A stretch of 64,000 nucleotides of DNA from Siphonodentalium dalli (taxonomy: Eukaryota > Mollusca > Scaphopoda > Gadilida > Siphonodentaliidae): assembly GCA_032622095.1 (NCBI GenBank), contig CP136062.1, forward strand, positions 201,583,459-201,647,458, given 5' to 3'. The stretch's first letter is position 1. The number at the start of each line of letters is the position of its first letter. The position numbers and the translations under genes are program-made. Positions 3,705-22,180 of the stretch are shown here, piece after piece. Under the pieces are notes generated by a model that was not told where the DNA came from, ran no database searches, and saw only the letters and a list, made by a program, of their open reading frames with translations.

Positions 3705-4486
3705 CGTTTCGTCTGTTTAAAATTTGCTGTGAAACAGATGGTTAACAGTGCGACAAATAATGGTAAAACACATAAACATGTGATTCCTTATACATTCAAA
3801 ACATTCATGTTTCTAAATAAATTGTTTGTCGGAATATTCGCGTCCGCTGTTAATCAATGTGATTTCTGAAGCGCGTCCAATGTTACATGATAACGGGTCC
3901 TCGTTACTCGTTGATAATGCTAACTATTCGAATTGCTGGAAACTGGTAAGTTGCCGATGGTTGTGATGCTTATATTTCAATGACAGGGATCCCGGCGGTA
4001 CCTAAACGTCATGAATTGTTCAGATTTGCACGTGATAACATTATTTTTTGGGTCAATTTGCGTGCAATTTTAGGGTTTTGCAAAAACTTTCCTCTTTATA
4101 CATTAATTGTGGACACGTTGACATCAATTTAGCACCCACAGATTTTGACTAATATTGTGCCAAAACACTACGCACACTAAAACATAGGTATATTAATTTT
4201 AAAGACCTTTACTCAACGTTTTTCTTGACCAGCCCGATACAATTTCTTCACACGGAAATCGCGTCCGTCGTTACTTATCCGGGTCCTCGTTACACGGATG
4301 ACCAGCGTGGAGACTGAGCAATCGATAGCTTTATCCGACATCTATCCATGTCAGATTCCGCTCTATATATGTAATATGGGTGAGAATGTAAACAACACGT
4401 GTTCCCGGTGTCGAAAAGTGCATTCTGGCGCTGTTCCGTTTTGAAGTTGACTTTCAGTCTCGGAGCTTTCTTTTACACAGGACAAA
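3705..4486. other. no gene recognised; two related short segments
   Basis: Segments near 3840-3920 and 4255-4310 share GCGTCCG...GGGTCCTCGTTAC and look like copies of a short dispersed repeat. Nothing else is supported. Confidence 0.35.
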
Positions 4487-4810
4487 ATGTCGTCCGTCAT
4501 TCATGCTTATTTTAAACATGATAAAACTGCAGGCAGTGCATGGACTTACACGTGTGATGAATGCAACATGGTGTATAAATCGCAAACATCTGGGACAACG
4601 ACCCATCTATGGAATCATCTGTTAAAGAAGCATCAACCACTACATGAAGATGCTATCCTGCGACTGTTGTTTTGCGTCTTCAAGTTTATAACAACGGGTG
4701 TTTCTGAATGCCGATTTGCAATTATGCATATAGTATACATGCAAACTGTAGAAGTTCCGCGTGATTTTAGTTCCGATAATCCGTTTAGAACTTTAGAGGT
4801 AATATATTAA
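4487..4810 (+). CDS. BED-type zinc finger reading frame, probably the first exon of a ZBED/hAT-like protein
   Basis: The frame opens at an ATG preceded by AAA (ACAAAATGT), a fair initiation context. Residues about 20-49 form a BED zinc finger: an aromatic WTYTCDECN start with Cys-x2-Cys, a polar linker with SGTTTHLWNH, and HLLKKH giving the His-x4-His pair. BED fingers are DNA-binding modules of hAT transposases and of the host ZBED genes derived from them, and they sit at the N terminus, as here. After about residue 54 the frame loses this character, so it probably reads into an intron or decayed sequence. No RNase-H-like transposase core or C-terminal dimerisation domain is visible nearby. 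It may be a decayed hAT element or the 5' exon of a larger gene; I cannot tell which. Confidence 0.55.
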   Translation: MSSVIHAYFKHDKTAGSAWTYTCDECNMVYKSQTSGTTTHLWNHLLKKHQPLHEDAILRLLFCVFKFITTGVSECRFAIMHIVYMQTVEVPRDFSSDNPFRTLEVIY

Positions 4811-5106
4811 TCGTTGTGGTGGTCGCATGGACGTTTTAATCTCTTTTGTTTTCTCGAGAATTATCAATTGAAGTTAATAGTATCTCAAACGATGGTTCAT
4901 CACCACATAAGTTGTGATGGAACTTCATGCATGTAGTTCATAGAACGTTTCACAAATGGTCTAATCGTTGACAAAACATGCCTAATCAAGAATGCAACAC
5001 ACAGATATGATTCGATTCGATATTCGATTCGATTTCGTGAATTCGATTCGATTCGAACAAAATATCCAATTCGCAGGACCTTTTTCATGTGAGCCGATAT
5101 AACACA
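4811..5106. repeat. (ATTCG)n-like microsatellite in otherwise unassigned DNA
   Basis: At 5008-5060 ATTCG/GATTCGATTCG is repeated imperfectly. The rest of the interval shows nothing I can assign. Confidence 0.6.
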
Positions 5107-5372
5107 ATGAACACTCTATTTGATAGTTGTAAACCATTAATTATGTGCCATGTCCTGTTTTGATAGTGAGAAGATTTTATTGCAATAGTTGCAAACAATT
5201 TTATCTGATTGAAACCATTGAATGTTATGGATCGTTTTAATGTAATAAAATTCGCCGAGAGAACATCTAAAAGTCCCCATGCATATTATGAACTGATGGA
5301 GTGTGATATCTATACGGGCGTAGCCTGAGTAGAAATTCATGGCATGATCTATATGTAACAAAGAAGCCATAC
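5107..5372 (-). other. intron 1 of the second DDO copy, conserved with the main gene
   Basis: This stretch matches 61994-62085 plus 63345-63495 in the main DDO gene with small differences. It begins with a GTATGG donor at 5372-5367 read on the minus strand. Conservation of intron as well as exon shows a fairly recent segmental duplication. Confidence 0.75.
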
Positions 5373-6849: not shown

Positions 6850-7339
6850 AAAAACCGAAAACCGCACCATTCTAACCCGTGCGGTTGCCACAGGAGGGTA
6901 CTCTGAGGTGGCAAAAAAGGGCACCCATTTCCGTTTCAGTATTTATGAACCGATTTTGCACAAATAAACGGTGCGGTAGTGTGGCCCACCACAAATTATA
7001 ATATAACACCAAAACACCAGCAACCCTCTAGCCCGTTCGGTTGCCACATTCAGGTGGTGGGAAAAGGGCACCCATTGCGTTTCGGTATTTATGGACCGAT
7101 TTTGACCAAATAAACGGTGCGATATGGTGGCCCCACCCTACCACACTGTTATTTTTGTCAAAATCAGTGCAATAAATACCTAACGGCAATAGATGCCATT
7201 TTGCCTGTGGCAACCACACGGACTAGAAGGGTGTGGTTTTCGTTCTTTCTAAGATAACTTGAGGTGGGCCACCCTATCGCACCGTTTATTTGGTCAAAAT
7301 CGGTCCATAAATTCCGAAACGGCAATGTGAGCAACCGTG
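6850..7339. repeat. cluster of a repeat of about 120-150 bp in both orientations
   Basis: Units near 6876-6985 and 7035-7130 share GGGCACCCATT...ATTTATG.ACCGATTTTG.CCAAATAAACGGTGCG. Units near 7150-7265 and 7266-7339 carry the reverse complement. The last unit is interrupted at 7339 by the giant palindromic element and resumes at 22084, which lets the empty site be reconstructed. Confidence 0.75.
7334..7339. repeat. target site duplication ACCGTG, left copy
   Basis: Six bases directly outside the left end of the giant palindromic element, identical to 22084-22089 directly outside the right end. Confidence 0.7.
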
Positions 7340-7480
7340 TGATGATAAGGCCCCCGTTTGGGGCCATTTCAGGAACGATAACTCTATTCTCTGCAGTACT
7401 CCCGTCTAGACAGTTTGACCTACATTCTCTGCAGTACTACCGTTGGTGTTTGACCTATATTCTCCGCCCACGCATTGCAT
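7340..7480 (+). repeat. left terminal region of the palindromic element with subterminal repeats
   Basis: The terminus is TGATGATAAGG, followed at once by a small hairpin GGCCCC-CGTTT-GGGGCC, then two copies of ATTCTCTGCAGTACT (near 7386 and 7424). Such subterminal hairpins and direct repeats are typical places for transposase binding. The right end 21943-22083 mirrors this. Confidence 0.65.
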
Positions 7481-7559
7481 CATGGTCTATTTGTATGCCG
7501 GTTGTGCATGTCCGGACATGACCCGTTGGTTATATCCAATGGGATAATGTTAAAGTGAC

Positions 7560-7870
7560 ACTCGCATTGAAAACTTCAAAAAATTCAAAACTTCAAAAAT
7601 TTCAAAAACTTCAAAAATTTCAAAAATTTCAAAAACTTCAAAAATTTCAAAAACTTCAAAAAATTCTAAAATTTCAAAAACTTCAAAAATCTCAAAAAAT
7701 TTCAAAAAACTTCAAAAACTTCAAAATACTCAAAAATTTCAAAAAACTTAAAAAACTTTTCAAAAAGAAACAAAAATGAAAAACAGAAAAAAATTCATAA
7801 ATTAAAAAAATATGAAAAACTTAAAAAACTTCAACTTTTTCTAAAATTCAAAAATAATTTAAAATTAAAT
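7560..7870 (+). repeat. A-rich low-complexity tract in the left arm, mirrored at 21545-21850
   Basis: Runs of CTTCAAAAA/TTTCAAAAA repeat about every 9-12 bp. A chance open frame rich in Lys, Gln and Phe runs through it. The two arms differ here by small indels, the usual behaviour of simple repeats. Confidence 0.8.
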
Positions 7871-8288
7871 TAAAATTAACTGTCTTTTAATATATCTAAC
7901 CCACTGCCACTTCTAAGGGTTCCACACTACACCTGAGGGGATATTGAGTGGTCTACACACGTCTCCTAAACCCTAGAATAAGATCCAGCCCATAAGAAAC
8001 ACTGCCTCCTGCAATGCCTGTCATTCGAATCTGACGCAATCACTACTTCTGGCGCAATGCCTGAGTCATTCGAATCTGGCGCAATCCCTACTTCCGGCGC
8101 AACGCCTGAGTCATTGGAATCTGACGCAATCCCTCGTGAAACCTACCGCCTGACTCCACACCCATCGGCTAAACGTTGTATCACATGCTTATTATTTGAT
8201 CATATCGTGGAAATTCAATGTTTTGTCATCACTCATGAGATATAACCCATATCCACTGAAAAAGGGTGGATATCCTCTATTTATTATA

Positions 8289-8957
8289 TGCTTCCCCATT
8301 AAATAGTGGGAAATTGCCGTGGCGTAGAGCGTTATATCCATCGCCTGGACCGACTCGATGGATAACACTGACCGACTCGATGGATAACACTGACCGACTC
8401 GATGGATAACACAATAGTATTACTTTTTCGGAGATTACTTCCGGTTTATAGCGGCGAATCACATTAAGTTTCAAAGCGTATCAATAACAGCCGGACTATT
8501 GTTTTAATTATTGATTTTCACGGTTCATAAACTGTTATTTAATTGTTATAATGTTAACTCATTTGTTTTAATATATTCTTATCACTAAATTACATATACA
8601 TTAATTTTCTCGCATCATTTCAGAATAAAACAATGGGGACTATTTCTTATGGCGGCTATGCTCGATATTTGTCATTCGGTGGTGAGCAAATCAATTGATG
8701 GAATGTAAACAAAATGCAAATGTCGAAGCTTTCTAACAATTTGAAGTGAACTGTAGGACAAAATTAGCAGTTTTGGTGCGGTTTATAGCGCATATAATAA
8801 AAAGAAAACCTACGGGTTTTGGTTGAATACCCGGATTATCTCATTCGTGGGTGCAAGGAAGTACAGAATTTCCACTCGCGGCTTGCAGCCGCTCGTGGAA
8901 ATTCTGTACTTCCTTGCACCCACTCATGAGATAATTCGGGTATTCAACCAAAACTCG
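8289..8957. repeat. block present only in the left arm, ending in a hairpin
   Basis: The right arm has about 17 unrelated bases (near 21123-21139) in place of this stretch of about 670 bp. The block holds three copies of GACTCGATGGATAACACT (about 8350-8412) and a near-perfect 151-bp hairpin at 8810-8960. Either the left arm gained an insertion or the right arm lost the block with filler DNA after the palindrome formed. Confidence 0.7.
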
Positions 8958-8960
8958 TAG
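8810..8960. repeat. 151-bp hairpin inside the left-arm-specific block
   Basis: CTACGGGTTTTGGTTGAATA... on the left pairs with ...TATTCAACCAAAACTCGTAG on the right, centred on GCGGCTTGCAGCCGC near 8878-8892, with few mismatches. Confidence 0.85.
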
Positions 8961-9402
8961 TATCATTTTTTTTATCCCTCTTTTTTATCTACCACTTCCT
9001 GTTTTTATTCGCTCTTCTTTTTCTTACAACTTCTAATCCCTCATAATCTTCGAATATCCACTTTCATCTCCAAGTTTTTGAAAAAATTCCTTGTTTAGTA
9101 GCACCTCCAGATGGGCTCTATAGAATTTGAACGAGGCATCCATCTTGGATATTACTCTTTCTATGACTAAATCCGTTAGCACGCTCTACAGATGTCATAT
9201 AGGTAGCACGCTCTACAGATGTCATATAGGCCTCTTCACATCTTGTTTTCCATAATTTATTCATTCCTAATCGCTCCATTGACTGTAACAAATTAAATTA
9301 CCCCCTCCCCCTGTATTTAGAATACATCCTTGATTATTAATATTTCCTCCTTTCATGGTGTGCATGTTCCTTGGGACATCTTTGCTAATGTGAAGCCACA
9401 CC

Positions 9403-9447
<45 letters not shown>
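9403..9447. repeat. (TA)n microsatellite, mirrored at 20651-20685
   Basis: An AT dinucleotide run, longer in the left arm than in the right. Confidence 0.9.
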
Positions 9448-9449
<2 letters not shown>

Positions 9450-10859
9450 ACTTTAAAAGCCCGCGAAAATATTACTCATATTATAGACTTCCCTTTGAAG
9501 ACCTTTGTATGTGACAATGATCCGTAATATTGTTTCTAAGTGACACTGGCCAGTGAAACTGATACTACGGGTATGAACTAGCCAACTTCACATCGTAACA
9601 ATAATAAAAGGGACACTTCATCTATATCAGTCTCAAAACGTGTTGGTACACATCTGTGTGGAAACTAAAACCAATCACTCTTCGTCCGTCATCCGTACAT
9701 AATTGTAATATAATTTTCTCAGAAACCACGGGATCCCTTTGGCTGAAATTTGGTCTCAACATGGGATCAGAAATTATCCATGGAAGACAACAGTGTCCGT
9801 GTGGGGAGAAGCTTCGTAGTGTTTCGCTGTCGCCATGGTGTTTGTTTGGGTATAGGCATGGGTGGTGAGTGTGGTTCTCATATGGTCTGAACTAGCCTTT
9901 ACTGACTGAGGTAATTTAGTGCACATGTCATCACTTCACTGATAACCATTATATGGTCAAATCCCTACACTATCAAACGCAATGTTTCAATAATGGGTTT
10001 TCTTAAAATTTTGACTAAATATTGGTTATATTATACGCATCAGCGATCCTTCTTAATAACGCTCTGTATATTTTCAAACGCATTGCACTAAATGGGTTTG
10101 GAATAGCCATACAGGAAAGGAGAAACTGAGGTCCTGGGTAGGTCGACTGCATATAGCAGTATATATGGGGTACAGACATGGACAGCAATGGGTTCCTCGT
10201 GGCTTCTGGTCTACACATGACATATTAAAGTTAACCACACCCATCGGCGCGCCTTTATTGGGCTATGAAGCGCCATACAGGCTCGAATCGTGGCCTTCGC
10301 CATGTGTTTCTATTTGAACCCACATTAGTAACTAATAAAATCTTTCTCTCCAGGTTGTTTCACGCCATAACCTTGATTTGGAAAGCTTGAAGGGCTAATT
10401 AAGCTTCAATTTAAATCCCAACATTATTTGAAGAACGTATCTGGTTAAACATGTCCACCATAGTAAGCTCATTTAATTCAAAGAGCTTCACACATAGTCC
10501 CACTAGTAATGATGTGTCGTTATTTACTGCAGAAATGGTCATATAGAATACAATACAACACATTTTGGTCACATACCTTAAAGGTGCACGTCACTTTCGC
10601 AAGATATCTAACTGACCATGTATAGAGTGGAATGACATGTCGTGTATCAAATGTATAATCAGTTCCAGTATTTCGTCCATAAGGCAGTTTTGGTTGTAAC
10701 ATCATTGTGTATGACGGTTCATTCATATGATACCTTAGCGGTTGCACACGATACTGTCTGTTGTATTTTATGTCTTATATCATGTATATTAATTGCTCCA
10801 TGGATGGTAGGAGTATGGCATTGGTGTCTGGTTCTTCGATGTATTCTAGTCATAGTTCA

Positions 10860-12060
10860 TTCATATTATTACTCTAAAATCTCCATTAAATGGAGAAACT
10901 AAAGAGCCCATATTATGTAGACTAGTGTATAAATACTTACTTCATGCATTATTTTCATCAACTATATGTATTATAACTCCCATCAAGATAGGCTGTTATA
11001 CAGAGGAAACAAAGCATGTACCAAGTGACAGTCTGTACCAAGTTACAGTCTCATGTCACGAAAGGCCTACTATGTGGACACATGTTCTTATCAAAACGCT
11101 CTATTATGTAGGGGGTTATCAACCATTGGTCTGGAAAAGGCATACGAGCGGAACGCGTGTATACACATTTATTCGATGTACTCTTTAATCTTCGATTTCT
11201 CTTTTTTGTCGTTAATTTATAGCATTATTAGTAGGAATCTAAACTCGCCGTTATATTGAGAAAATAATGCGTCAATACCAGTCAATACTGCTTTATTGGC
11301 GGTAAATGAAATTATTGAATCATGTATCGCAGCTAAACAAGCGAGACAACTGATCACAACACAAAAATTAGTAATATTTCTGAAGCCTTGAGTGGTTTGT
11401 AATACACAGTGTAAATTTTCATTATTGCTACCATTTAAGGAAACATGCCCCCGATAGGGCTACTATGCGAACACATGTCTATATTAATTTCACATATTCC
11501 TTACCGTTCATTCATATATACTCCAAGCTCTCTGTTAATACAGAGGCATCAAAACATTGGTCTGGAAAAGACCTACTATGTGGATGCGTGTATACATATT
11601 TACTTGATGTATTCGTTAATCGTTCATTTCTCTTTATTATCGTTCATTTATAGCATTATTAGAAGAAATTTAGTCTAAAATCTCCATTACATGGAGACAA
11701 TAAAGAGCCCATATGGTGTAGACTAATGCATAAATACTTCATGTATTCTTTTCACCAATTATATGTATTGTACATCCTATACATTTAGTCTGTTATACAG
11801 AGGAAACAAAGCATGTACTACGTGGCAGTTTCATATGACGATAAGACCTACTATGTGAACACATGTGCATATTAATTTCACATATTCTTCTCAAAACGCT
11901 CTATTTTATACGGGGGTATCAAACATTGGTCTGGAAAAGGCCTGCTATGTGGACGCGTGTATACATATTGACTTCATATATGCATTCATAGTTCATTTCT
12001 ATTAATTGTCGTTCATTTAATAGCATTATTAGTAGAAATATAGTCTAAAACCGTCGGTAT
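10860..12060. repeat. three tandem diverged units of about 400 bp in the left arm
   Basis: ATTGGTCTGGAAAAG recurs at about 11126, 11555 and 11925. AAAATCTCCATTA and TAGCATTATTAGTAG recur in step. The right arm carries the same array inverted at about 18040-19240. Confidence 0.75.
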
Positions 12061-13479
12061 ATGGATAATATATAGCGTCAATACTGTTTTATTGTTGGTA
12101 ACTCAAATTATTGCATCATGTATCGCAACTAAACAAGCGTGACAACTCATAAATTCTTAATAGTTCTGATGTCTATGGCAGTTCACAGAGTGTATATTTT
12201 CATTGTTGTTACCATTTTAGTGCATACATTACTGATTTCTGTGTAAGAACGCCGGTCTCCATTGTTGTTATGATTGTGCCTATAACTGTCCATATTCTTA
12301 AAGCAAGTACGGTACCTCTATGTGATATGATCTATACAAAATTCCATTTTCACAGGTAAATCACGTATAAACGCTCTTTAATGTATAGTTAAACTGAGTT
12401 TTCACATGCAGGGCTATGTCTTTGTGGACTATATACGTGGTATACTTCAGTATATACACGAAGTGAATGTGTTCTAAGTATGCGTATCTGATTTATGTAT
12501 ACGTCCGTGTTTCTTAAAGCAAATCCAATACATATTAGTGCGTTATATTATGATGTACATTAAGTGCCCTTTTCACTGTTAAATCAAGTAAAAAGGCCCT
12601 CTACTATAGTTAACTATTCAGTTCCACATACGCTATAAGATATATGGTGGTCCGGTGTGTCTTATCAATATGCCATTATATGCACGAATGTAATGTGTTC
12701 AAATATGTGGGTTATGATGTATACTTTAATGTTAAAGTATATAAGCACTCTTTAAGATATGCATATGCAGAATGTTGCCTCTTTACACTGACAGAAAAAA
12801 AAGGAATATATAATTTTGAGTACTACTCTTCATAAAACGTTAGAAAACCATAATCTAACAACGAATATCGAAGAACAATGTAATTACTTGATAAGCATTG
12901 TAAATATTTCGTCTGTTTTAAATAAAATGGAAATATTTCGTCTATTTGAAATACAGTTGGAAGCAACAATCAAGTATTTAAATGAAATTTGGACCAAAAT
13001 CTTATAATTTGAGAAAACGTATATAATTTCTATCGAAGTCTTATAATAAAGGAAGGCTTTGTGCGAATCCATTCGGTCTAATGTGTGAATGTGTTCATCA
13101 TCGCAAATATAATGATGCAGAAATTAATATTTCCTAGAATAATGTTAACATAGCTTGTATTTAACCGAAATAATATAGCATTTGAGTTAAAATGTTTCAT
13201 ATTAGGACCATAACGAACCAATGCATAAAAATACAATATTTTGTTTTTCATTCTCGATCAAAATAATGCAGGGTTGTCAATTATCAACAAAAAACAAATA
13301 CTTTGAAACAAAAACGATGACATAAGAAGGAATATCCAAGAGCTAGTGTGAAAATAACCCTCACATTTATAAAAAAAAACAATAAAATTAAAGTTTTCGA
13401 GTAAGTCCTTCAAATTTATTGAATGTTTTCGTCTATGTTGGATCAAATTTGACACAAAAATCAATTAGCTCACTAACAG

Positions 13480-14600
13480 TTCGCGCAATATCTCATATTT
13501 TGAGAAAACGTTTGCAATTTTAGACAACAATATTGCTAGTGAAGGTGAATATTTCATCCTGGAACTCATGAAATATGATAAAAATAGATGTAAAGACACT
13601 TCACGAGCCCTCATATATTTGAGTTATGAACATAAAGTCATCTCATAGTGCCATTGTACCCCATAATTTGGTCAGGAGAAATATGTATTTCATATTTGAC
13701 CCTTCATCTGTGGTAAAAAATGAATTAAGGGACATGGGAGTGGTGTCCCTAGACATTAACCTAGAGCATAAATTGACTCAATTATGCAATTTTAGGCAAC
13801 ATTCTTGCCAGGGAAAGTGTATATTTCATGTTGGAACTCATCCAATGTGATAAACATGCATCATAAGACACTTAATGAGCTCTGATGACTTTGAGTTATG
13901 ACAACAACGGCATCTCATACTAGATTGTAAGCCATAATTTGGTCAGGAAAAGTGTAAATTTCATATTTTATCCTACATGTGTTTTAACAATCAATGTAAT
14001 TACACCCCATCGGTCGCCTAGACACAGCGTAAAGTTCTCAAGTTTTCAATTGTAGGCCACAATGTCGGCAGTGAAGGTAAACATTTCATGTTGGAACCCA
14101 TGAAATGTGATAAAATGGATAAAAAGACACTTCCTGAGTCCTTATGACTGAGTTATGAACATAAAGGGAACTCATAGTGTATTGTAGGTCATAATTTGGT
14201 CAGGAAAATTGTAAATTTCATGTCTTAAGCTCCATGTGTTTAAAAAATATATGTAATTACAACCATTGGGTCCCTAGAGATCAATCCACAGTCCATATGT
14301 AGTCCATATGCAATTTTAGGGAACAGTTTTGCTAGTGAAGGTGAACATTCCATGCTGGAACTCATGAAATATGATAAAAATAGATGAAAAGACACTTTCT
14401 GAGGCCTTGGTCGGGAGAAATGTGTATTGTATTTTGACCCTTGATGCGTGGTAGCAATCAATGAAATTACACCCCACGGTATCCTCAGATATGAAGCAAC
14501 ATCATAAATGCACTCAGTTTTGGCAATTTAGACAACATTGTTGATAGGGAAGTTGTACATGTCATGTTGGAACTGGTGAAATGTGATAATAATTGATCAA
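13480..14600. repeat. four to five tandem diverged units of about 260 bp in the left arm
   Basis: ATAATTTGGTCAGGA recurs near 13662, 13931, 14190 and, diverged, 14407. Each unit also has CATGAAATATGATAAAA followed by AAAGACACTT. The right arm carries the inverted array at about 15500-16615. Confidence 0.75.
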
Positions 14601-15034
14601 AAGACACTCGATGAGCCCTGATGGGTTTCAATTATGGTCATAAAGGCATATGATAGTGTCATTATACAACGGGGAAATTTGTGAAGCGCTAACAAAGCGT
14701 ATCTACACGGTGTTATACGATCCAAAATGATCCTGATATAAGAAATGCAACCTAGATCATACTCAGTATCTTCGTATCGACTGAATATATCGTTATTCGA
14801 TGGTGTTCCCGACATACCTCCGTCTTTACTTTTCTTATGCCTTTGTAAATTGTAGTTCGTCGATAATATATTTCTGCACAAATGGCACCCGTGTATTGTC
14901 TCGAATCATGGGAAGAACTATCGTCCTTATACCAGCGAAAAGATGAGCGAATATGGTGTGGTATTATAAACTCGCCGCCTTCGTACCTCTATTTATCGTT
15001 TAGAGTTATTGTTCTTAGATAAAAAATTGGCGCG

Positions 15035-15062
15035 CGTGCGGCCCCCTCATCCCCACTGCCGC
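15035..15062. other. 28-bp spacer at the centre of the giant palindrome
   Basis: GC-rich, non-palindromic sequence between GATAAAAAATTGGCGCG and its reverse complement. The arms pair perfectly right up to it (symmetry sum 30097). Confidence 0.9.
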
Positions 15063-18000
15063 CGCGCCAATTTTTTATCTAAGAACAATAACTCTAAACG
15101 ATAAATAGAGGTACGAAGGCGGCGAGTTTATAATACCACACCATATTCGCTCATCTTTTCGCTGGTATAAGGACGATAGTTCTTCCCATGATTCGAGACA
15201 ATACACGGGTGCCATTTGTGCAGAAATATATTATCGACGAACTACAATTTACAAAGGCATAAGAAAAGTAAAGACGGAGGTATGTCGGGAACACCATCGA
15301 ATAACGATATATTCAGTCGATACGAAGATACTGAGTATGATCTAGGTTGCATTTCTTATATCAGGATCATTTTGGATCGTATAACACCGTGTAGATACGC
15401 TTTGTTAGCGCTTCACAAATTTCCCCGTTGTATAATGACACTATCAGATGCCTTTATGACCATAATTGAAACCCATCAGGGCTCATCGAGTGTCTTTTGA
15501 TCAATTATTATCACATTTCACCAGTTCCAACATGACATGTACAACTTCCCTATCAACAATGTTTTCTAAATTGCCAAAACTGAGTGCATTTATGATGTTG
15601 CTTCATATCTGAGGATACCGTGGGGTGTAATTTCATTGATTGCTACCACGCATCAAGGGTCAAAATACAATACACATTTCTCCCGACCAAGGCCTCAGAA
15701 AGTGTCTTTTCATCTATTTTTATCATATTTCATGAGTTCCAGCATGGAATGTTCACCTTCACTAGCAAAACTGTTCCCTAAAATTGCATATGGACTACAT
15801 ATGGACTGTGGATTGATCTCTAGGGACCCAATGGTTGTAATTACATATATTTTTTAAACACATGGAGCTTAAGACATGAAATTTACAATTTTCCTGACCA
15901 AATTATGACCTACAATACACTATGAGTTCCCTTTATGTTCATAACTCAGTCATAAGGACTCAGGAAGTGTCTTTTTATCCATTTTATCACATTTCATGGG
16001 TTCCAACATGAAATGTTTACCTTCACTGCCGACATTGTGGCCTACAATTGAAAACTTGAGAACTTTACGCTGTGTCTAGGCGACCGATGGGGTGTAATTA
16101 CATTGATTGTTAAAACACATGTAGGATAAAATATGAAATTTACACTTTTCCTGACCAAATTATGGCTTACAATCTAGTATGAGATGCCGTTGTTGTCATA
16201 ACTCAAAGTCATCAGAGCTCATTAAGTGTCTTATGATGCATGTTTATCACATTGGATGAGTTCCAACATGAAATATACACTTTCCCTGGCAAGAATGTTG
16301 CCTAAAATTGCATAATTGAGTCAATTTATGCTCTAGGTTAATGTCTAGGGACACCACTCCCATGTCCCTTAATTCATTTTTTACCACAGATGAAGGGTCA
16401 AATATGAAATACATATTTCTCCTGACCAAATTATGGGGTACAATGGCACTATGAGATGACTTTATGTTCATAACTCAAATATATGAGGGCTCGTGAAGTG
16501 TCTTTACATCTATTTTTATCATATTTCATGAGTTCCAGGATGAAATATTCACCTTCACTAGCAATATTGTTGTCTAAAATTGCAAACGTTTTCTCAAAAT
16601 ATGAGATATTGCGCGAACTGTTAGTGAGCTAATTGATTTTTGTGTCAAATTTGATCCAACATAGACGAAAACATTCAATAAATTTGAAGGACTTACTCGA
16701 AAACTTTAATTTTATTGTTTTTTTTTATAAATGTGAGGGTTATTTTCACACTAGCTCTTGGATATTCCTTCTTATGTCATCGTTTTTGTTTCAAAGTATT
16801 TGTTTTTTGTTGATAATTGACAACCCTGCATTATTTTGATCGAGAATGAAAAACAAAATATTGTATTTTTATGCATTGGTTCGTTATGGTCCTAATATGA
16901 AACATTTTAACTCAAATGCTATATTATTTCGGTTAAATACAAGCTATGTTAACATTATTCTAGGAAATATTAATTTCTGCATCATTATATTTGCGATGAT
17001 GAACACATTCACACATTAGACCGAATGGATTCGCACAAAGCCTTCCTTTATTATAAGACTTCGATAGAAATTATATACGTTTTCTCAAATTATAAGATTT
17101 TGGTCCAAATTTCATTTAAATACTTGATTGTTGCTTCCAACTGTATTTCAAATAGACGAAATATTTCCATTTTATTTAAAACAGACGAAATATTTACAAT
17201 GCTTATCAAGTAATTACATTGTTCTTCGATATTCGTTGTTAGATTATGGTTTTCTAACGTTTTATGAAGAGTAGTACTCAAAATTATATATTCCTTTTTT
17301 TTCTGTCAGTGTAAAGAGGCAACATTCTGCATATGCATATCTTAAAGAGTGCTTATATACTTTAACATTAAAGTATACATCATAACCCACATATTTGAAC
17401 ACATTACATTCGTGCATATAATGGCATATTGATAAGACACACCGGACCACCATATATCTTATAGCGTATGTGGAACTGAATAGTTAACTATAGTAGAGGG
17501 CCTTTTTACTTGATTTAACAGTGAAAAGGGCACTTAATGTACATCATAATATAACGCACTAATATGTATTGGATTTGCTTTAAGAAACACGGACGTATAC
17601 ATAAATCAGATACGCATACTTAGAACACATTCACTTCGTGTATATACTGAAGTATACCACGTATATAGTCCACAAAGACATAGCCCTGCATGTGAAAACT
17701 CAGTTTAACTATACATTAAAGAGCGTTTATACGTGATTTACCTGTGAAAATGGAATTTTGTATAGATCATATCACATAGAGGTACCGTACTTGCTTTAAG
17801 AATATGGACAGTTATAGGCACAATCATAACAACAATGGAGACCGGCGTTCTTACACAGAAATCAGTAATGTATGCACTAAAATGGTAACAACAATGAAAA
17901 TATACACTCTGTGAACTGCCATAGACATCAGAACTATTAAGAATTTATGAGTTGTCTCGCTTGTTTAGTTGCGATACATGATGCAATAATTTGAGTTACC

Positions 18001-20648
18001 AACAATAAAACAGTATTGACGCTATATATTATCCATATACCGACGGTTTTAGACTATATTTCTACTAATAATGCTATTAAATGAACGACAATTAATAGAA
18101 ATGAACTATGAATGCATATATGAAGTCAATATGTATACACGCGTCCACATAGCAGGCCTTTTCCAGACCAATGTTTGATACCCCCGTATAAAATAGAGCG
18201 TTTTGAGAAGAATATGTGAAATTAATATGCACATGTGTTCACATAGTAGGTCTTATCGTCATATGAAACTGCCACGTAGTACATGCTTTGTTTCCTCTGT
18301 ATAACAGACTAAATGTATAGGATGTACAATACATATAATTGGTGAAAAGAATACATGAAGTATTTATGCATTAGTCTACACCATATGGGCTCTTTATTGT
18401 CTCCATGTAATGGAGATTTTAGACTAAATTTCTTCTAATAATGCTATAAATGAACGATAATAAAGAGAAATGAACGATTAACGAATACATCAAGTAAATA
18501 TGTATACACGCATCCACATAGTAGGTCTTTTCCAGACCAATGTTTTGATGCCTCTGTATTAACAGAGAGCTTGGAGTATATATGAATGAACGGTAAGGAA
18601 TATGTGAAATTAATATAGACATGTGTTCGCATAGTAGCCCTATCGGGGGCATGTTTCCTTAAATGGTAGCAATAATGAAAATTTACACTGTGTATTACAA
18701 ACCACTCAAGGCTTCAGAAATATTACTAATTTTTGTGTTGTGATCAGTTGTCTCGCTTGTTTAGCTGCGATACATGATTCAATAATTTCATTTACCGCCA
18801 ATAAAGCAGTATTGACTGGTATTGACGCATTATTTTCTCAATATAACGGCGAGTTTAGATTCCTACTAATAATGCTATAAATTAACGACAATAAAGAGAA
18901 ATCGAAGATTAAAGAGTACATCGAATAAATGTGTATACACGCGTTCCGCTCGTATGCCTTTTCCAGACCAATGGTTGATAACCCCCTACATAATAGAGCG
19001 TTTTGATAAGAACATGTGTCCACATAGTAGGCCTTTCGTGACATGAGACTGTAACTTGGTACAGACTGTCACTTGGTACATGCTTTGTTTCCTCTGTATA
19101 ACAGCCTATCTTGATGGGAGTTATAATACATATAGTTGATGAAAATAATGCATGAAGTAAGTATTTATACACTAGTCTACATAATATGGGCTCTTTAGTT
19201 TCTCCATTTAATGGAGATTTTAGAGTAATAATATGAATGAACTATGACTAGAATACATCGAAGAACCAGACACCAATGCCATACTCCTACCATCCATGGA
19301 GCAATTAATATACATGATATAAGACATAAAATACAACAGACAGTATCGTGTGCAACCGCTAAGGTATCATATGAATGAACCGTCATACACAATGATGTTA
19401 CAACCAAAACTGCCTTATGGACGAAATACTGGAACTGATTATACATTTGATACACGACATGTCATTCCACTCTATACATGGTCAGTTAGATATCTTGCGA
19501 AAGTGACGTGCACCTTTAATGTATGTGACCAAAATGTGTTGTATTGTATTCTATATGACCATTTCTGCAGTAAATAACGACACATCATTACTAGTGGGAC
19601 TATGTGTGAAGCTCTTTGAATTAAATGAGCTTACTATGGTGGACATGTTTAACCAGATACGTTCTTCAAATAATGTTGGGATTTAAATTGAAGCTTAATT
19701 AGCCCTTCAAGCTTTCCAAATCAAGGTTATGGCGTGAAACAACCTGGAGAGAAAGATTTTATTTAGTTACTAATGTGGGTTCAAATAGAAACACATGGCG
19801 AAGGCCACGATTCGAGCCTGTATGGCGCTTCATAGCCCAATAAAGGCGCGCCGATGGGTGTGGTTAACTTTAATATGTCATGTGTAGACCAGAAGCCACG
19901 AGGAACCCATTGCTGTCCATGTCTGTACCCCATATATACTGCTATATGCAGTCGACCTACCCAGGACCTCAGTTTCTCCTTTCCTGTATGGCTATTCCAA
20001 ACCCATTTAGTGCAATGCGTTTGAAAATATACAGAGCGTTATTAAGAAGGATCGCTGATGCGTATAATATAACCAATATTTAGTCAAAATTTTAAGAAAA
20101 CCCATTATTGAAACATTGCGTTTGATAGTGTAGGGATTTGACCATATAATGGTTATCAGTGAAGTGATGACATGTGCACTAAATTACCTCAGTCAGTAAA
20201 GGCTAGTTCAGACCATATGAGAACCACACTCACCACCCATGCCTATACCCAAACAAACACCATGGCGACAGCGAAACACTACGAAGCTTCTCCCCACACG
20301 GACACTGTTGTCTTCCATGGATAATTTCTGATCCCATGTTGAGACCAAATTTCAGCCAAAGGGATCCCGTGGTTTCTGAGAAAATTATATTACAATTATG
20401 TACGGATGACGGACGAAGAGTGATTGGTTTTAGTTTCCACACAGATGTGTACCAACACGTTTTGAGACTGATATAGATGAAGTGTCCCTTTTATTATTGT
20501 TACGATGTGAAGTTGGCTAGTTCATACCCGTAGTATCAGTTTCACTGGCCAGTGTCACTTAGAAACAATATTACGGATCATTGTCACATACAAAGGTCTT
20601 CAAAGGGAAGTCTATAATATGAGTAATATTTTCGCGGGCTTTTAAAGT

Positions 20649-20687
<39 letters not shown>

Positions 20688-22083
20688 GGTGTGGCTTCAC
20701 ATTAGCAAAGATGTCCCAAGGAACATGCACACCATGAAAGGAGGAAATATTAATAATCAAGGATGTATTCTAAATACAGGGGGAGGGGGTAATTTAATTT
20801 GTTACAGTCAATGGAGCGATTAGGAATGAATAAATTATGGAAAACAAGATGTGAAGAGGCCTATATGACATCTGTAGAGCGTGCTACCTATATGACATCT
20901 GTAGAGCGTGCTAACGGATTTAGTCATAGAAAGAGTAATATCCAAGATGGATGCCTCGTTCAAATTCTATAGAGCCCATCTGGAGGTGCTACTAAACAAG
21001 GAATTTTTTCAAAAACTTGGAGATGAAAGTGGATATTCGAAGATTATGAGGGATTAGAAGTTGTAAGAAAAAGAAGAGCGAATAAAAACAGGAAGTGGTA
21101 GATAAAAAAGAGGGATAAAAAAAATGATAACAAAGAAAAAATTATAAATAAATAGAGGATATCCACCCTTTTTCAGTGGATATGGGTTATATCTCATGAG
21201 TGATGACAAAACATTGAATTTCCACGATATGATCAAATAATAAGCATGTGATACAACGTTTAGCCGATGGGTGTGGAGTCAGCCGGTAGGTTTCACGAGG
21301 GATTGCGTCAGATTCCAATGACTCAGGCGTTGCGCCGGAAGTAGGGATTGCGCCAGATTCGAATGACTCAGGCATTGCGCCAGAAGTAGTGATTGCGTCA
21401 GATTCGAATGACAGGCATTGCAGGAGGCAGTGTTTCTTATGGGCTGGATCTTATTCTAGGGTTTAGGAGACGTGTGTAGACCACTCAATATCCCCTCAGG
21501 TGTAGTGTGGAACCCTTAGAAGTGGCAGTGGGTTAGATATATTAAAAGACAGTTAATTTTAATTTAATTTTAAATTATTTTTGAATTTTAGAAAAAGTTG
21601 AAGTTTTTTAAGTTTTTCATATTTTTTTAATTTATGAATTTTTTTCTGTTTTTCATTTTTGTTTCTTTTTGAAAAGTTTTTTAAGTTTTTTGAAATTTTT
21701 GAGTATTTTGAAGTTTTTGAACTTTTTTGAAATTTTTTGAGATTTTTGAAGTTTTTGAAATTTTAGAAATTTTTGAAGTTTTTGAAATTTTTGAAGTTTT
21801 TGAAATTTTTGAAGTTTTTGAAATTTTTGAAGTTTTGAATTTTTTGAAGTTTTCAATGCGAGTGTCACTTTAACATTATCCCATTGGATATAACCAACGG
21901 GTCATGTCCGGACATGCACAACCGGCATACAAATAGACCATGATGCAATGCGTGGGCGGAGAATATAGGTCAAACACCAACGGTAGTACTGCAGAGAATG
22001 TAGGTCAAACTGTCTAGACGGGAGTACTGCAGAGAATAGAGTTATCGTTCCTGAAATGGCCCCAAACGGGGGCCTTATCATCA
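15063..22083 (-). repeat. right arm of the giant palindrome
   Basis: Reverse complement of 7340-15034 without the block of about 670 bp at 8289-8957. The short frames here (for example 15216-15500, 19880-20083, 20230-20442) duplicate those of the left arm and I consider none of them genes. Confidence 0.9.
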
Positions 22084-22180
22084 ACCGTGGCAATGCGTGC
22101 AACCACGCAGGGCTAGAAGGGTGTGATGTTCGGGTTTTCTAACATAACTTGGGGTGGGCCTCCCTACCAAAATGACCGCT
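22084..22180. repeat. target duplication ACCGTG (22084-22089) and resumed flanking repeat unit
   Basis: After ACCGTG the sequence GCAACCACGCAGGGCTAGAAGGGTGTG matches the unit at about 7208-7235 in direct orientation and continues to AACTTGGGGTGGGCC, matching about 7256-7272. The repeat unit broken at 7339 therefore continues here. Confidence 0.75.

Follow-up and report, generated by a model that had tools for sequence, protein, structure and literature searches.

A dispersed family of near-perfect palindromes in a scaphopod genome shares ends, 6-bp target-site duplications and a hinge with ATPase-bearing relatives and is likely a Polinton-type satellite

Long palindromes are commonly regarded as accidental and unstable. 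Foldback elements (Drosophila FB, MULE-type foldbacks and Galileo) bear long inverted repeats with internal tandem repeats between target-site duplications (TSDs) of 7–11 bp, and we know of no foldback with a conserved hinge or with arms that are renewed at each insertion. Snap-back and hairpin products (defective adenovirus and phi29 genomes, rolling-hairpin parvoviruses and foldback inversions) are free replication products or chromosomal accidents. For vertebrate Mavericks, the available part of one source gives terminal inverted repeats of 46–1,447 bp and end motifs of which (AGT)2 is the commonest, with (AG)3 and (AC)3A also present (PMC8097293). The Vesanto virus and the bidnaviruses are described, in the available excerpts, as segmented PolB relatives, in which several molecules carry different genes and similar terminal repeats (PMC8363768, PMC11071296). 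Here we analyze a 14,744-bp palindrome in a window of 64,000 nucleotides from the scaphopod Siphonodentalium dalli (assembly GCA_032622095.1, contig CP136062.1, positions 201,583,459–201,647,458, forward strand). The family to which it belongs is dispersed, consists as a rule of palindromes, has a conserved axis and shares (TGA)2 ends, 6-bp TSDs and a hinge with palindromes that encode an ATPase. The element is likely a non-coding satellite of the Polinton/Maverick type, and its arms are probably remade as mirror copies in each round, by DNA synthesis that would turn around at the hinge.

The element proper occupies positions 7340–22083 of the window. The first-pass annotation had placed it at 7334–22089, which is correct for the span that includes both TSDs (ACCGTG at 7334–7339 and at 22084–22089) and too wide for the element itself. 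The parts that it described are all present in the sequence: a left arm of 7,695 bp (7340–15034, plus strand), a 28-bp spacer as the non-palindromic centre (15035–15062), and a right arm of 7,021 bp (15063–22083, minus strand), which is a mirror copy of the left arm and terminates in ...TATCATCA. The alignment of the two arms contains 20 mismatches in 7,020 columns, about half of which lie at the edges of a single length difference. The left end (7340–7365, plus strand) starts with (TGA)2, a doubled trinucleotide, after which come TA and a small GC-rich stem-loop (7349–7365); the predicted fold of this stem-loop (−7.6 kcal/mol) is equaled in 2 of 200 shuffles. As had been noted, the arms lack coding sequence: the element has no open reading frame (ORF) of at least 100 amino acids, stop-to-stop frames in the left arm reach a length of 110 amino acids at most, and a Pfam comparison of six left-arm frames gave no match at E 0.01. 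When the flanks (80 and 81 bp) are joined with one TSD retained, they align across the junction with the neighbouring repeat units, at 75.9% identity over 162 columns for the unit 6975–7133 and 75.2% over 149 columns for the unit 7133–7276. The proposed reconstructable empty site is therefore supported at about 75% identity.

The host assembly (2.227 Gb in nine contigs) contains many further copies. A terminal query yields 45 matches on eight contigs, mostly as inverted pairs about 14 kb apart (best 40 of 1,317 candidates). An axis query yields 40 full matches (best 40 of 332 candidates), and a mirror-image partial match adjoins 39 of them. The 26-base end pattern TGATGATANNNNNCCYGTTTGGKGSC occurs 253 times in the genome (127 + 126), compared with 0 + 0 for the control; when up to three mismatches are allowed, the counts are 606 + 622 and 57 + 85, respectively. 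Among 100 end-pattern matches listed, 14 stand alone and the other 86 make up 43 inverted pairs; 22 of the pairs span 13.5–15.3 kb, 18 span 3.7–8.8 kb, and the remaining three span 12.9, 13.45 and 22.3 kb. The 18 bases after TGATGATA are identical between both ends in 39 of the 43 pairs, whereas 20,000 rounds of random re-pairing gave 2.9 identical pairs on average and never more than 10.

Besides the window, we read ten loci from the terminal query, C9_184, C1_28, L035–L038, the 22.3-kb locus x22 (L039, L040 and L041) and L042. A perfect 6-bp TSD flanks all 17 elements with both ends read, that of the window included, so that the further copies with 6-bp duplications for which the first-pass annotation had proposed a search do exist; C5_208, which lacks its right end, and C9_184, the right end of which was not fetched, are outside this count. 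Two of the elements, C7_909928 and C7_909140, represent one insertion copied by segmental duplication, which leaves 16 distinct insertions. The structure is not due to chance, because it is found again at numerous sites whose 6-bp duplications differ. Both arms measure 6.94–7.06 kb in nine of the ten other copies compared (one end of C5_208 was set approximately).

Two of these loci have additional structure. At C1_28 (L033 and L034, C1:2858172-2874654), the sequence beyond an inner right end repeats at least 500 bp of the left flank in mirror orientation and then reaches a second right end, and the 6-bp duplication borders the outer ends; the mirrored flank stems either from a foldback at this site or from faulty assembly. 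C9_184 (L029–L032, C9:184695597-184735596), with ends 39 kb apart, was considered as an autonomous copy and rejected, as it is a family palindrome interrupted by a 25.3-kb insertion at a clean point near its centre (about 8252–33586 of the joined piece), with arms that differ at 3 of 6,414 sites. The inner 10-kb pieces (L030 and L031) contain no stop-to-stop frame of 150 amino acids; the parts of the insertion in L029 and L032 were not scanned.

Relatives with the same ends carry genes. L036 (4,437 bp) contains a 561-amino-acid ORF with a match to Pox_A32 (E 4.7e-6, 26.7 bits, cut-off 22.8), the type of the Polinton packaging ATPase. L042 (7,830 bp) is a complete palindrome with an open 590-amino-acid ATPase ORF in each arm, and the right-arm ORF, which was scanned, has a Pox_A32 match above the cut-off. 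L036 matches one arm of L042 at about 97%, with the hinge and a short right end in addition. Genome-wide, the ATPase is found at 74 scored places (best 74 of 8,455 candidates), 66 of which are free of internal stops. Forty-eight of these places form 24 divergent inverted pairs at most 12 kb apart, and no neighbours within 12 kb in any other orientation were found among the 74; the other 26 are unpaired, and their partners may lie outside the scored set. The L036 ATPase has 212 protein relatives. Among the matches listed, these are mainly from bivalves and metagenomes (the named ones among 120 listed are bivalves except for one bacterial bin); PF00665 and PF00770 are also present, each in one gene model. 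Solved structures searched with the ATPase as query yielded no useful match (best E 0.11).

Other same-ended elements encode small proteins. L037 (6,751 bp) is a palindrome with a 225-amino-acid ORF in both arms (L037:3656-4330 and its mirror), for which a large protein search gave no relative at E 0.001; the mostly palindromic L035 (6,301 bp) contains a 182-amino-acid frame of the same protein. x22 (C2:234246101-234268582) consists of two different palindromes, of about 5.4 kb and 17 kb, which are fused head to head within a single pair of ends and one 6-bp duplication. The first carries a 233-amino-acid ORF (L039:1019-1717 and 4093-4791), and the second, the 7,477-bp arms of which differ at two sites, carries a 208-amino-acid ORF (L040:2224-2847) that resembles it. 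This protein of 208–233 amino acids, found in both arms of several palindromes, has no Pfam match. No transposase, integrase or polymerase was seen between family ends among the elements read; the autonomous copy with a transposase for which the first-pass annotation had proposed to look was not found, and the gene-bearing copies contain the ATPase or other ORFs only.

The hinge is a stem-loop on the symmetry axis (15016–15081 in the window). Its predicted DNA fold has an energy of −25.3 kcal/mol (z −8.9), which none of 200 shuffles reaches, and the spacer occurs in both orientations among other copies. The hinge pattern has 123 + 90 matches genome-wide and none in the control. An exact hinge is present in 20 of the 43 end pairs listed, within 150 bp of the midpoint in 14 and within 3 bp in 9. 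In L042 and in the first x22 palindrome, the same type of loop with the same inner stem forms the axis, with different arms outside it, and L036 has a hinge of this type off-centre.

The arms change in concert between insertions. We aligned the 22 arms of 11 copies (6,798 ungapped columns) and counted site classes over ten distinct insertions, outside the loop. At 136 variable sites the arms are symmetric in every copy, and at 110 sites a single copy is asymmetric (or several copies are, with different letters). The same asymmetry is present in more than one copy at just two sites, positions 362 and 7015. Position 7015 is the seventh stem pair from the spacer, where the asymmetry is common to C5_82, C6_31 and C7_658; this is the place where a hairpin turn would leave an asymmetry unrepaired. 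Within a copy, the arms differ at 5–34 sites. Between copies, the differences amount to 7–17 sites within two close groups, 21–25 between C5_208 and C6_590, and 38–132 otherwise. C5_208 and C6_590 have 6 and 10 differences within the copy versus 21–25 between copies; they are separated by 16 concerted differences, and their 4 and 8 asymmetries have none in common. In the tree, the two arms of one copy are sisters in C5_208 and C6_590 (support 100), in the window element (98) and in C9_157 (76), while C6_443 stands beside C9_157 in a placement that is not resolved.

The segmental duplication on C7 (L017–L020, C7:90913037-91007804) is useful as a clock. The two duplicates lie 79 kb apart with identical flanks and TSD, differ from each other at 1–17 sites, and cluster in the tree (100), A arm with A arm and B arm with B arm. 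They have 11 arm asymmetries in common outside the loop. Because this host-made pair shares 11 asymmetries and distinct insertions share hardly any, host copying keeps asymmetries and passage to a new insertion loses them. Judged from these alignments, asymmetries hardly pass between insertions, except at the hinge. In another copy, C4_272 (L009 and L010, C4:272860028-272876142), many arm differences cluster at arm positions 3929–5316, which looks like a recombination or conversion tract.

Protein-primed polymerases, such as those of adenovirus and phi29, displace a single strand. If the window element is a satellite of the Polinton type, such a polymerase and an integrase, both supplied in trans, would copy and insert it. 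Copying would run round the hinge on the displaced strand, or on a molecule of one arm that the hinge closes, and one arm would thereby serve as the template for the other. The hinge would fold in the single strand and prime the copying of the arm, and an old asymmetry would survive only in the hinge stem and loop, as at position 7015. Both termini of the symmetric product would be the same end, and an rve integrase would insert it with a stagger of 6 bp; the arms would then gather mutations separately. The genome contains a protein-primed PolB at 69 scored loci (best 69 of 1,596 candidates); the majority have an open frame of about 952 or 1,312 amino acids, and none of 14 control genomes has a match. 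Many of these loci have nearly equal scores, which suggests a recent spread.

Among the features of Polintons, the 6-bp TSD and the (TGA)2 termini are present in the family, and Pox_A32 matches above the cut-off are present in the same-ended L036 and L042. The window element has no PolB, rve integrase or ATPase of its own (no ORF of at least 100 amino acids), and it is therefore classed as a likely satellite that works like a Polinton and not as a member of the group. A wider reading, which we hold only tentatively, is that of a multipartite Polinton-like virus-transposon: its chromosomal segments would be near-perfect palindromes that carry the ATPase, other small genes or none, each segment would consist of one arm that a conserved hinge hairpin closes, this arm would be copied round the hinge, the mirror dimer, with a single kind of end, would be integrated, and both arms would be rewritten at each jump. 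In this one genome, ends and hinge are common to elements with different ORF contents, and no PolB was found with these ends. Either PolB elements with other ends act in trans, or the genes are split over several elements, or another helper is involved. If the reading is true, Polinton-type replication and integration become testable here, and so do the hairpin turn as a regular replication step of an integrated element and the division of such a genome over several molecules. Annotation by gene content alone would class the window element as an unknown foldback element.

Compared with Polintons/Mavericks (adintoviruses), the family has in common the 6-bp TSD, a short repeated end motif, inverted ends and the packaging ATPase in same-ended relatives. 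The doubled trinucleotide (TGA)2 fits this reading because the commonest vertebrate motif is (AGT)2, although the letters differ from those of the vertebrate motifs in the available part of the source; the inverted repeat spans the whole arm, 7.0–7.7 kb versus the 46–1,447 bp given there for vertebrates (PMC8097293). Also unlike Polintons are the gene-free window element and the near-perfect palindrome with a conserved axis. A literature search by titles and abstract openings, which is weak evidence of absence, found no palindromic Polintons and no integrated palindromic counterpart of the segmented PolB relatives. The Vesanto virus and the bidnaviruses resemble the family in that units with different gene contents have similar ends; in the available excerpts, however, the Vesanto segments are free viral molecules of 3.3–5.8 kb with inverted ends, whereas the units here are integrated, mostly palindromic and larger (PMC8363768, PMC11071296). 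The units here are known from chromosomal copies in one genome and not as co-occurring segments. Snap-back and hairpin products likewise have one arm that templates the other after a hairpin turn, but here the hinge is conserved in a dispersed and integrated family. Foldback elements share the long inverted repeats with internal tandem repeats, and a foldback, MULE or Galileo identity was rejected on the length of the TSD, which is 6 bp in 17 of 17 elements instead of 7–11 bp. A long terminal repeat retrotransposon was rejected as well, since the terminal repeats are inverted and not direct and there is no ORF of at least 100 amino acids. Of the first-pass annotation, the mobile palindrome with a 6-bp TSD thus stands, whereas "foldback of no known family" is too narrow because of the same-ended ATPase relatives, the Maverick-like doubled-trinucleotide ends and the concerted change of the arms.

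Several observations count against a Polinton-type satellite with a hairpin turn. None of the 69 PolB loci lies within 40 kb of a listed ATPase (best 74 of 8,455 candidates), the nearest distance being 435,598 bp; for this reason a helper, an integrase and any segmentation are inferred. Among the 35 comparable PolB loci, which are those on contig stretches with end-pattern matches listed, one has an end or hinge within 40 kb; it is located 8.7 kb outside L036. Neither a PolB nor an integrase was found between family ends (the integrase was not searched genome-wide), and the window element itself has no gene. Matching ends are also present on L036 and L038, which are not full palindromes, so that end identity alone is no proof of a hairpin turn. 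L037, L035 and the second x22 palindrome have other centres, and the hinge is thus the axis of some types and not of all; L036 resembles L042 minus 3.4 kb and is therefore no clear one-arm ancestor. In the arm alignment, the second shared asymmetry, at position 362, lies in a simple repeat (C6_590 and the window). C5_82, C6_31 and C7_658 form one clade in which the A and B arms group weakly apart (69 and 68), and the differences between these copies are no greater than those between the arms within a copy. The arms of C4_272, which differ at 34 sites, are not paired in the tree.

The alternatives differ chiefly in how they account for the concerted arms. The element may be an ordinary transposon whose terminal inverted repeats are very long and whose arms are kept alike after insertion by gene conversion. 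Such conversion between arms is known from sex-chromosome palindromes, as far as the available part of the source describes them (PMC7023750), and the cluster at 3929–5316 in C4_272 resembles a conversion or recombination tract. However, the C7 duplicates retain 11 shared asymmetries and have since come to differ at 1–3 sites per arm, so that no conversion of those sites is seen over a time span that may be short. The 110 single-copy asymmetries across the ten insertions also argue against conversion; the hinge-stem asymmetry is the one clear exception, as it does pass between insertions. We regard this explanation as unlikely. A conventional cut-and-paste DNA transposon that is not a Polinton and makes 6-bp TSDs, with relatives that captured a Polinton ATPase, would agree with the failure to find a PolB or integrase with family ends and with the window element and several relatives having no or unknown ORFs. 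It is nevertheless rather improbable: the doubled-trinucleotide ends and the 6-bp TSD fit Mavericks, 66 of the 74 scored ATPase places have no stop, and concerted arms need a copying step that cut-and-paste transposition does not provide.

A palindrome can also form once and thereafter be copied whole and faithfully, for example after a break near a short inverted repeat and through a hairpin-capped end, as for the ribosomal DNA of Tetrahymena. This would explain the spacer and the hinge-stem asymmetry common to C5_82, C6_31 and C7_658, yet it predicts a greater divergence within copies than between copies, and the reverse is found for C5_208 and C6_590 (6 and 10 versus 21–25). With 136 sites changed jointly in both arms, whole-palindrome copying without renewal is disfavoured by the arm tree and the site-class counts, and we hold it to be very unlikely. 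An artefact of assembly or of palindromic reads could be suspected from the mirrored flank of at least 500 bp beside the inner right end of C1_28. We give it next to no credence, as the flanks on the two sides differ and are linked by perfect TSDs at each of 16 distinct sites, and both arms have private differences.

Two further features lie within the left arm of the window element. A subterminal simple repeat with a unit of about 9 bp (AAAAATTCA-like) occupies 7570–7834 (plus strand) and is found in same-ended relatives too. At 8300–8957 (plus strand), a segment of about 658 bp stands in place of about 20 bp; it is present only in the left arm of the window copy and contains most of an imperfect palindrome at 8794–8975. 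A comparison of a 1,101-bp piece of the element with phage records gave no match, and an Rfam scan of the window gave 0 matches. Outside the element, positions 1221–1850 of the window contain a reverse transcriptase ORF (RVT_1, E 1.4e-27), which belongs to a separate retroelement.

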